The notes under the pieces: model-generated
The model's database searches: none
What the model was told of the DNA's origin: nothing
The model's input: only the letters and a program-made list of their open reading frames with translations
Translations under genes and position numbers: made by a program
Assembly (NCBI GenBank): GCA_019509985.1
Contig: JAEKLF010000044.1
Location: forward strand, 1-64,000
DNA: 64,000 bases
Source of the DNA: Burkholderiales bacterium
Lineage (GTDB): Bacteria; Pseudomonadota; Gammaproteobacteria; Burkholderiales; Burkholderiaceae_C
Direction of reading: 5' to 3'
Shown: piece after piece, positions 61,573-64,000 of the stretch
Numbering within the stretch: position 1 is the stretch's first letter
Layout of the letters: the number at the start of each line of letters is the position of its first letter

Positions 61573-63339
61573 TCACCAGCCAATCGTGAAGGTCACGGTC
61601 GTCGGCGCCGCCGTGTGGATGGACGGGCTGAAGCCGCCCACGTCGTCGTAGGCGAAGCCGTAGGCCAGCTTGTTCAGGCTGTGGTCGTGCCAGAACTTGG
61701 AGTACCAATTGCTCACCTGTCCCGCCGGGTGGTGGGCGGACTGCACGTACCAGTTGGCCGGCGTCTCCAGCACGTGGCGGTTCAGCGCGGCGCAGATCTG
61801 GGCCTGGATCTGCAGCTGGGTGCCGGTGTTGGTCGGCCCGCCGCTGGCGTCGGCCAGCAGGCCAGAGCCGAGCAGGACCATGGCCGTGTCGGGCTTGCCG
61901 TTGATGTAAAAGGTGCCGGCCGGCGAGCCGCCCGTGAATGTGAAGCGGTCACCGCTGACGCGGCCCCGGAATGTGCCCAGGTTCTGCAGCGTGAAGACCA
62001 GGTCCTCGTTGCGATAGCGCGCCCAGACCGCGTCGATGTAGGCCTGCAGATAGTTGGCATTGACCTGGCCGGGTTTGAAGGTGCCGTGCGCCGGCGCGAT
62101 GATGCGATAGGGTGAATAAGGCGCCTGCGCCAGGTCATGGAACTCGGCCGGCGTCTCGGTCTGGTAGCGGCTGACGAGCTGGTCGCGCGTCTCGGTCAGC
62201 GGCTCGCCCACGGTCTGGTCAAAGCCGCCCAGACCCTGCACGCGCAGCTTCACGGGGAAGCCGAACTGGTCCACCCGCGTCGTGTTGACGAAGATGCCGG
62301 GGTTGGCATTGCCCTGCGGCAGGATGGCCATCTCACCGAAGTCGAAGTAGACGTCGATGTTGGGATCGCTCGCGTTCTCGATGTTGGCGCCGGCATAGCC
62401 GATGTTGCCGTTGCCGTCGACGACGACCCGGATGTACATCGGCGAGCCCACCGACATCATCACGCGCGCCGAGTCCAGCGCCGGGATGGTGATGGAGCGC
62501 GTGGCGCTGAGCTTCTGGAAGTAGTTCGTGTAGGTCACGCCACCCTTGCTCAGCGCACCGTTGTCGGCGGTTGACATGGGCACCAGGTTGCCCGCGGCGT
62601 CCACGTGCACGAAGCGGCCCGTGGCCCAGTCGCGGCCGATGATGGCCCAGTAGACCTGGTCATCGGTCCAACGGCCGCCGGTCTGGTTGACGATATTGAA
62701 GGTCGTGCGGCCGTTCCAGCTGCCGGTGCCGGTGTTCGTGCCCACACGGTAGGACGAGGTCAGGTCGTTGAAACCACGGTTGACGAGGTTGGGCTCGTCG
62801 CCCGTCATCACGAGGGACGCGCCGCCGTAGCTGACGTCATTGAACAGCGTAGCCTGGTAGCCCGACTGCACCTTGACGGACGACACGCGGTCGTTCCAGG
62901 CGGCGCCGATCCAGCTCGAATCCGAGCTGGCGCAGAAGCTGTCGCCGGTGTAGTTGATGTCGGCGTAGAAGCAGACCGGCCCGGTCGCCGTGCTGCTGCC
63001 CACCGTGTAGCTGAACTTGGGCGTGTCGTAGGCCGGCGTGCCGTTGTTGTAGGTGAACCAGTAGCCGATCACGTTGCCGGTGGCGACGGTGAGCTTCTGC
63101 TCGTAGCGGCCATTGGCGGCCGTCATGCGGATGTTCTGCTGCGGGCCGTTGTTGACGGTGTAGTGGGCGTCGACCCATGTGGTCGACACATTGGATTTGA
63201 ACCAGATCGTGGCGGTGGCGCCGCTGACCTCGACGCCCTGGGTGTAGTCCTGGGCCAGTACCGGGGTGGTGCCCAGCAGGCTCGAGGCCAGCAGGCAACA
63301 AGCGCCGAGAAGGCGCAAGCAACGCAAAACAAGATTCAC
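61573..63339 (-). CDS. Secreted GH64 beta-1,3-glucanase with CBM56 and beta/gamma-crystallin domains
   Basis: 588 residues from a GTG start with AAGGAG ahead. Signal peptide about 1-29 (ending VLA). Residues ~33-112 form a CBM56-like beta-glucan-binding domain (TIWFKSN, WVDAHYTVN, IGYWFTYNNGTPAYDTPKF). Residues ~120-200 form a beta/gamma-crystallin-like domain (VCFYADINYTGDSFC; SSVKVQSGYQATLFNDVSYGG). Residues ~205-588 form the GH64 catalytic domain, thaumatin-like; E336 (DFGEMAI) and D357 (TTRVDQFG) are the best candidates for the acid and base. GH64 enzymes cut beta-1,3-glucan to laminaripentaose, so fungal wall or curdlan/laminarin is a likely substrate. Two LacI-type palindromes lie upstream. 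Confidence 0.92.
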   Translation of the reverse strand: MNLVLRCLRLLGACCLLASSLLGTTPVLAQDYTQGVEVSGATATIWFKSNVSTTWVDAHYTVNNGPQQNIRMTAANGRYEQKLTVATGNVIGYWFTYNNGTPAYDTPKFSYTVGSSTATGPVCFYADINYTGDSFCASSDSSWIGAAWNDRVSSVKVQSGYQATLFNDVSYGGASLVMTGDEPNLVNRGFNDLTSSYRVGTNTGTGSWNGRTTFNIVNQTGGRWTDDQVYWAIIGRDWATGRFVHVDAAGNLVPMSTADNGALSKGGVTYTNYFQKLSATRSITIPALDSARVMMSVGSPMYIRVVVDGNGNIGYAGANIENASDPNIDVYFDFGEMAILPQGNANPGIFVNTTRVDQFGFPVKLRVQGLGGFDQTVGEPLTETRDQLVSRYQTETPAEFHDLAQAPYSPYRIIAPAHGTFKPGQVNANYLQAYIDAVWARYRNEDLVFTLQNLGTFRGRVSGDRFTFTGGSPAGTFYINGKPDTAMVLLGSGLLADASGGPTNTGTQLQIQAQICAALNRHVLETPANWYVQSAHHPAGQVSNWYSKFWHDHSLNKLAYGFAYDDVGGFSPSIHTAAPTTVTFTIGW

Positions 63340-63486
63340 CTTTGTCTCCTTTGCCCGCTCGCGGATGGCGGGTCGTTCAGGGGCCCAACGATTGAAGGAA
63401 TTGCAAGGCCGGTGTCTGGATTGCGAAGACCTACTGCGTGCCCCGGCATGCAGCCGCTGCCGGGCCAGGTCGCGATTGCGAGGGCA

Positions 63487-63502
63487 ATGAAAGCGCTTTC
63501 AT
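63487..63502. promoter_or_regulatory. LacI-family operator upstream of the glucanase gene (site 1)
   Basis: ATGAAAGCGCTTTCAT, a perfect 16-bp palindrome with central GCGC, the shape of carbohydrate-responsive LacI-family operators. It is 148 bp before the glucanase start codon. A LacI regulator is not encoded in the window. Confidence 0.7.
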
Positions 63503-63530
63503 ATTTGCGTCGCATCGTCCTGGGAGAGGG

Positions 63531-63546
63531 GAGAAAGCGGTTTCAT
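63531..63546. promoter_or_regulatory. LacI-family operator-like site upstream of the glucanase gene (site 2)
   Basis: GAGAAAGCGGTTTCAT matches site 1 at 13 of 16 positions. The centres are 44 bp apart, close to four turns of the helix, so the same protein could bind both on one face or form a short loop. Confidence 0.5.
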
Positions 63547-63601
63547 GGAAAACCCGCGGCGAGGCGGTTCACGAGTCGCCCGCTTCTGGGACAGGAAACC
63601 C

Positions 63602-63634
63602 ACAAAAGGAAACGGCCGCCTCGCGGGCGGCCGT
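63602..63634 (-). terminator. Terminator of the nitronate monooxygenase gene
   Basis: On the minus strand ACGGCCGCC (63634-63626), a 5-nt loop, GGCGGCCGT (63620-63612), then TTCCTTTTGTG. A 9-bp GC-rich stem with a broken U-run, 24 nt past the stop codon. Confidence 0.7.
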
Positions 63635-63658
63635 CTACGGGCAGGCCTTGCTAACCGG

Positions 63659-64000
63659 TCAGCCCAGCGCCAGCCGCGCCCGCGCCGCCACGTATTCGCG
63701 CTTCAGGCGCGCCACCAGCTGCGCCGCTGGCAGCACCTCGCGCACCGCACCGATGCCCTGGCCGCTGCCCCAGATTTCCTTCCAGGCCTTGGCCGCGCCG
63801 CCGCCAAAGTTCATCGCGCTGGGGTCGCTCTCAGGCAGGTTGTCCGGGTCCATGCCCGCCGCGACGATGGAGCCGCGCAGGTAGTTGCCGTGCACGCCGG
63901 TGAAGAGGTTGCTGTAGACGATGTCGTCGCTGTTGCTGGCGACGATCATCTGCTTGTACTCGTCGCTGGCGCGCGCCTCATCGGTGGCGATGAAGGCCGA
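63659..64000 (-). CDS. Nitronate monooxygenase family protein (C-terminal part; cut by window edge)
   Basis: The last 113 codons of a minus-strand gene that continues past 64000. The visible part reads FIATDEARASDEYKQMIV, SDDIVYSNLFTGVHGNYLRGS, and ends AKAWKEIWGSGQGIGAVREV plus a Leu/Arg-rich helix, matching the FMN-dependent nitronate monooxygenase/2-nitropropane dioxygenase family. These enzymes oxidise alkyl nitronates such as propionate 3-nitronate; some members act on other substrates. The FMN-binding and catalytic N-terminal part is outside the window. Confidence 0.88.
   Translation of the reverse strand, partial: SAFIATDEARASDEYKQMIVASNSDDIVYSNLFTGVHGNYLRGSIVAAGMDPDNLPESDPSAMNFGGGAAKAWKEIWGSGQGIGAVREVLPAAQLVARLKREYVAARARLALG

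Follow-up and report, generated by a model that had tools for sequence, protein, structure and literature searches.

Conserved LacI-type palindromes upstream of a GH64 beta-1,3-glucanase gene as predicted operators of a scattered beta-glucan regulon

The window, by which we mean the whole 64,000-nucleotide stretch of DNA analysed, carries at its right-hand end a secreted-type glucanase gene, the leader of that gene and part of a second gene:

61573..63339, minus strand: GH64 beta-1,3-glucanase gene, secreted-type, with CBM56 and an I36/beta-gamma-crystallin-type domain (Pfam; 588 amino acids, GTG start)
63346..63351, minus strand: AAGGAG ribosome-binding sequence of the glucanase gene (read directly)
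63487..63502, no strand given: predicted operator site 1, ATGAAAGCGCTTTCAT, a perfect palindrome 147 bp 5' of the GTG start
63531..63546, gene strand reads ATGAAACCGCTTTCTC: predicted operator site 2, GAGAAAGCGGTTTCAT, a 13/16 match 191 bp 5' of the start
63610..63636, minus strand: terminator-like hairpin 3' of the upstream gene (1 found vs 0.7 expected in shuffles)
63659..64000, minus strand: nitronate-monooxygenase-like gene, 3' part (Pfam NMO), with no regulon link

The glucanase was recognized by Pfam matches to GH64 (E 2e-79), CBM_56 (E 4.2e-26) and Inhibitor_I36 (E 2.5e-12), and by a PDB match to a GH64 chain (E 4.6e-149); the NMO match of the upstream gene (E 1.9e-4, 21.3 bits) falls below the Pfam cut-off of 28. 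Because the terminator-like hairpin immediately follows the nitronate-monooxygenase-like gene, the two sites appear to be within the glucanase's own leader. No sigma-70-like promoter was detected between positions 63300 and 63700, nor by eye in an alignment of ten related leaders.

The original prediction described two LacI-type palindromes 44 bp apart upstream of the glucanase, one a perfect 16-mer and the other matching at 13 of 16 positions, with centers near four helix turns apart. Both sites are exactly where they were placed, with a start-to-start spacing of 44 bp, and the match counts were reproduced; four turns is a fair approximation but not exact, as 44 bp makes ~4.2 turns with a helical repeat of 10.5 bp. 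Both are even palindromes with a central CG, in keeping with LacI-family operators (16-22 nt). There were no further matches to ATGAAAGCGCTTTCAT in the 64-kb window at up to three mismatches, a threshold at which shuffled sequence yielded 0.09 matches per window on average (100 shuffles; largest, 1).

We scanned the source genome (6.5 Mb, 358 contigs) for the 14-base core, TGAAAGCGCTTTCA, with the core read backwards as a control. Seven perfect copies were found and no backwards controls; at up to two mismatches, there were 26 places in the whole genome vs 5 backwards controls. The seven perfect copies are distributed upstream of six transcription units, the extents of which were inferred from gene order. 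Four of the copies are clustered on one contig, C208, together with a LacI-family gene:

window: perfect core in the GH64 leader, upstream of the GH64 gene
C208:10594: perfect core next to an SBP/ABC-permease/GH1 operon; a divergent GH18+CBM5/12 gene is ~290 bp away
C208:12852: perfect core 5' of a GH16+CBM6 gene
C208:14516-15565: LacI-family gene (349 amino acids), within the operator cluster
C208:15725 and 15937: two perfect cores 5' of a TonB receptor unit
C160:40741: perfect core 5' of a PEP-CTERM operon, paired with another site at a distance of 13 bp
C278:42367: perfect core 5' of thioredoxin-like and MFS genes

Four of the six units contain glucan, chitin or oligosaccharide genes, one is the TonB receptor unit (receptor, then halogenase, SapC, cupin and a second halogenase-like gene), and one is the thioredoxin/MFS pair, in which a role related to glucan is not evident. 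Among solved structures, the best match to the SBP carries the name cellobiose-binding protein (E 2e-25) and the best matches to the GH16 protein are laminarinases and endo-1,3-glucanases; the C160 operon encodes two PEP-CTERM proteins and a protein with CBM56 and a SKN1/KRE6 match (GH16-like, 39 bits). Against the concern that such sites might prove frequent and unrelated to carbohydrate genes, they are rare and mostly at carbohydrate targets. One imperfect site, on C304, falls inside a glyoxalase-family gene; we judge the other places with one to three mismatches to be mostly chance, and weak true sites may be among them.

The pair 5' of the PEP-CTERM/CBM56 operon overlaps, with the sites 13 bp apart (L017:7729-7755, equivalent to G000:C160:40728-40754); the same overlapping pair occurs in regions from five relatives (L109, L114, L116, L118 and L121) and is absent from L104. 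At the SBP gene (L016:10589-10607), the operator core begins 4 bp before the picked ATG, and the situation is similar in several relatives. Since this leaves no room for a ribosome-binding site, either the start is leaderless or the true start lies later.

A LacI-family regulator encoded elsewhere in the genome had been anticipated, and the C208 gene, situated among four perfect copies of the site, is a candidate for it. Its product has an N-terminal LacI helix-turn-helix (Pfam LacI, 56.1 bits; cut-off, 27) followed by a periplasmic-binding-protein-like sensor domain (Peripla_BP_3, 130 bits; Peripla_BP_1, 118.4 bits), as in LacI/GalR proteins, and its recognition pair is Pro-Ser (PS), in SPSTVSR. 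The protein aligns to the LacI chain up to position 329 at most and ends ~5 residues beyond, short of the LacI tetramerization helix, which we take to be at about 340-357, indicating that it has no tetramer tail and that tetramer-based looping is unlikely. The source genome contains five LacI matches at E 1e-40, the C208 protein included. An operator-like sequence with three mismatches is present inside the first codons of the C208 gene (L016:14540-14555), and one-mismatch sequences fall within the LacI reading frames picked in G009 and G015; these could be either autoregulatory or a coding coincidence.

We compared the occurrence of the sites with that of C208-type LacI genes. Among 60 relatives, perfect sites were present in 19 of the 20 genomes encoding a LacI with ≥60% identity vs 1 of the 40 others. 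Across 160 genomes of the family, they were present in 22/24 encoding a LacI with ≥55% identity vs 5/136 others, with a Fisher p of 3e-20 that is indicative only, because the genomes are related, the two samples share genomes, and the 55% line was set after the table had been seen. When all LacI matches at E 1e-88 were counted instead, the figures for the 160 genomes were 22/28 vs 5/132. Backwards controls were found in none of the 160 family genomes and in one (G042) of the 60 relatives. Three genomes have the LacI and no perfect site: G011 (62% identity; genome 83% complete), G167 (60%) and the Albitalea genome G144 (56%). G144 has imperfect sites only, and the stretches around the LacI genes of G011 and G167 contained no site at up to three or two mismatches. 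Conversely, five genomes have sites and no C208-type LacI (G149, G113, G091, G157 and G035). The G149 sites are at a GH81 gene; the sites in G113 (within a thioesterase gene), G091 (a SelO gene lies 221 bp away) and G157 (at no recognized gene) have no glucan link.

To survey targets in relatives we used 40 regions, comprising the surroundings of LacI orthologues and other perfect sites. The survey covers the fetched regions (the G035 site and one of two G014 sites, which lie outside the C53 and C230 stretches, were left out), and gene starts, both in these and in the further regions below, were assigned by simply taking the longest ORF, which places some sites within frames that are too long. 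With a single exception (L105), the perfect sites in these regions were at target types seen in the source genome (SBP or GH1, GH16, GH18, TonB receptor, GH64, the PEP-CTERM operon or its GH16-like gene, and thioredoxin/MFS) or at a GH30 glucanase, namely an endo-beta-1,6-glucanase-like gene in G026. Two regions, L142 and L143, had no perfect site. A site precedes the LacI gene itself in four genomes (G003, G004, G006 and G007). The nearest site is 4-5 bp from the start codon of the SBP gene in several genomes and ~46-52 bp from that of the TonB receptor in most. The exception, in G016 (L105:3922-3935), is a perfect operator where an ADP-ribosylglycohydrolase-family gene begins; such a target was not expected.

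A further 16 regions, most of them belonging to other genera within the family, were drawn from fetched genomes only; sites in these were at SBP, GH1, TonB receptor, LacI, GH30, GH64 and GH81 genes. GH30 recurred in G159, and sites were found at Ig-like-domain proteins in G181 and G124; nine of the unassigned neighbor proteins in these regions were scanned. GH81 beta-1,3-glucanase genes lie behind paired sites in G181, G140 and G149 (L194:4187-6487, L195:16485-18917 and L202:6365-8662), with the operators of a pair 114-146 bp apart. The presence of the operator at GH81 genes in other genera suggests that it outlives any particular glucanase family, and the target types across relatives suggest beta-1,3/1,6-glucan as their common denominator.

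A GH64 protein search over the genome contigs returned 28 loci. Both sites are present in all nine Roseateles/Pelomonas-type loci, and the Albitalea locus has two cores, each with one mismatch, 48 bp apart; the remaining 18 loci, all more distant, are without these sites, 5 of them having another operator and 13 neither. The prospect that the sites would be absent upstream of orthologues is therefore borne out for the more distant loci and not for Roseateles/Pelomonas and Albitalea. GH64 was found in 10 of 60 relatives, counting the source genome, all within the genus. A search of the 350 bp upstream of the 13 operator-free loci (L070 and L072-L083) for any LacI-like palindrome with at least 6/7 pairs found none in ten; weak palindromes were present once each in L074 and L075 and twice in L080. 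One Roseateles-type locus (L059:4001-5752) comes from a record titled Methylotenera sp.; its match is at the same place as that of G014, a genome of the same genus, and the record is probably a misnamed bin.

We aligned the leaders of the window and the nine close loci over positions 63340-63602. Both sites are kept in all ten, 44 bp apart in nine and 43 bp apart in one. No 14-base window of the alignment is fully invariant except those overlapping the two sites, and mean column identity was 0.93 in site 1 and 0.96 in site 2 vs 0.78 in the 228 other leader columns. The 14-base core of site 1 is invariant in 10/10 leaders, as are 14 of the 16 columns of site 2, its off-consensus C among them. 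Also invariant across the ten is AGGAGACA, at the ribosome-binding sequence of the glucanase.

The other operator is found in the leaders of Lysobacteraceae GH64 genes (assigned by the origin labels on the GH64 tree), where TGACARCGCTGTCA or a one-base variant is present in 5/7 loci; the two Pseudoxanthomonas loci have neither operator, and the TGACARCGCTGTCA pattern had no match in the Albitalea genome. A LacI with the recognition pair MK is encoded near three of the five loci (L066-L068), and in G065 and G060, the genomes of the other two, an MK-pair LacI is encoded on another contig, beside a site of the TGACARCGCTGTCA type. Operator type tracks the recognition residues, with PS accompanying TGAAAGC and MK or IK accompanying TGACARC. 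PS is present in all 18 C208-type LacI genes in which the helix was read (that of L140 was not picked up), and in a LacI relative of 52% identity in G057, where a variant site, TGAAAACGATTTCA, is 23 bp upstream of the gene. A GH64 tree was built from the window and every locus but L081 (27 of 28); among its labelled rows, the loci of each operator type fall into a single group with full support, the 12 unlabelled rows being uncounted. The source genome contains the other type too: TGACAGCGCTGTCA is present at L174:2380-2393, beside an IK-pair LacI and GH1, and at L175:5820-5833, at a TonB-receptor-like gene. These sites perhaps represent a parallel beta-glucoside regulon.

Two recognition-helix residues, 15 and 16, have been reported to set operator nucleotides 4 and 5 (PMC2978694). 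At the level of sequence the PS/MK operator pattern agrees with this rule, in a comparison that uses the loci of this analysis, since the parts of PMC2978694 drawn on here give no PS entry. Because orthologous GH64 leaders differ in operator where LacI proteins of matching type differ in recognition residues, the two lineages form a natural experiment on which the LacI recognition code can be tested.

Taken together, our data make it very probable that the palindromes are operators of the C208 LacI-family repressor, which would control a scattered beta-glucan regulon. The regulon would comprise the GH64 gene; the SBP/ABC transporter/GH1 operon, possibly with the divergent GH18 gene; the laminarinase-like GH16+CBM6 gene; the TonB unit; the PEP-CTERM/GH16-like/CBM56 operon; and the thioredoxin/MFS pair. 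When substrate is lacking, a LacI dimer would most likely occupy both GH64 sites and transcription would be blocked; an imported glucan oligosaccharide, the presumed inducer, would then release LacI. Binding, repression as opposed to activation, operon structure and the identity of the inducer are all putative in this scheme. It is the content of the target genes that points to beta-1,3-glucan as the signal and from which we infer induction by glucan products. The conserved 44/43-bp spacing may hint at cooperativity of the pair, but the 48-bp spacing in Albitalea is about half a turn out of phase with 44 bp; as the C208 protein has no tetramer tail, cooperative action would have to come from contact between dimers or from a plain double block. 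Overall, the system appears to be a genuine bacterial gene switch of a conventional kind.

Palindromes can form hairpins, and a chance or hairpin element that is no operator at all is one alternative. Chance palindromes are ruled out by the 0.09 matches expected per window and the backwards control of zero perfect matches in the genome; with the near-fixed spacing kept in ten leaders and the recurrence of the target genes, we consider the likelihood of this alternative negligible. It is also quite unlikely that a different LacI-family paralogue of the source genome binds both sites. There are several such paralogues, one of them beside TGACAGCGCTGTCA, the second operator type, and sites are present in 5 of 136 family genomes without a C208-type LacI, in one case at a GH81 glucanase; however, it is the C208 protein that is encoded among four perfect sites and whose orthologues the sites track over 160 genomes, and the C229 paralogue has the pair IK and a different adjacent palindrome. 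That the LacI protein acts at GH64 as an activator or dual regulator has somewhat more to recommend it, given the distance of the sites from the start codon (147 and 191 bp) and the room that the lack of a detected promoter leaves for activation, but at other targets the nearest site is often near the start codon, which fits repression, and a long 5' leader would account for the GH64 distances. We therefore regard activation as unlikely and repression by the C208 protein as the best explanation.

A broader hypothesis has two parts that would have to hold jointly: that GH64 genes have passed between LacI regulators, each change of operator being accompanied by one in the recognition helix (in Roseateles and Albitalea, TGAAAGCGCTTTCA and PS; in 5/7 Lysobacteraceae loci, TGACARCGCTGTCA and MK), and that the Roseateles GH64 gene belongs to a regulon for fungal-type walls (beta-1,3/1,6-glucan plus chitin) that commands PEP-CTERM surface proteins. 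We put this forward tentatively, leaning slightly against the conjunction. Among the papers returned by searches of open-licence literature, none describes this beta-glucan regulon in its title or in the opening of its abstract; our analysis provides the beta-glucan regulon of Roseateles/Pelomonas and relatives with a likely regulator, together with an operator and a set of targets.

The predicted switch bears similarity to several known systems. LacI regulons reconstructed by comparative genomics (PMC4052901) likewise have even palindromes with a central CG, carbohydrate targets and, in some cases, tandem sites; of the spacing peaks given there (13, 22 and 32 bp), the 13-bp pair of the PEP-CTERM operon matches one, and 44 bp does not match any. 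BglR1-3 of Caulobacterales, linked to beta-glucosides, are named in that paper, in the main text of which the words glucan, laminarin and Comamonadaceae are absent, and a laminarinase operon described in PMC3750489 is under a BglR of the ROK family, not the LacI family. The core TGAAAGCGCTTTCA is the cre operator as quoted in PMC5171806 and the optimum CcpA sequence in PMC5483248, and the solved structures closest to the C208 protein include CcpA chains. The C208 protein is nevertheless not CcpA by its TIGR01481 score (188.7 bits vs a cut-off of 442.35), and differs from CcpA in its recognition helix (PS vs MA in CcpA) and in its glucan regulon. E. coli LacI belongs to the same family and has two operators at one leader, but those operators are looped, whereas the C208 protein is without the tetramerization helix. 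The closest functional precedent is GlyR3 of Clostridium thermocellum, a LacI-family repressor of the glucan-degradation genes celC-glyR3-licA that is released by laminaribiose (PMC5483248); by analogy, laminaribiose is our guess for the inducer of the C208 protein. GlyR3 comes from another phylum and controls a single local operon plus manB, and its own operator, TGAACGCGCGTACA, differs from the one described here. GlyR3, and by prediction the C208 protein, pairs a CcpA-like 14-bp operator with genes for glucan degradation.
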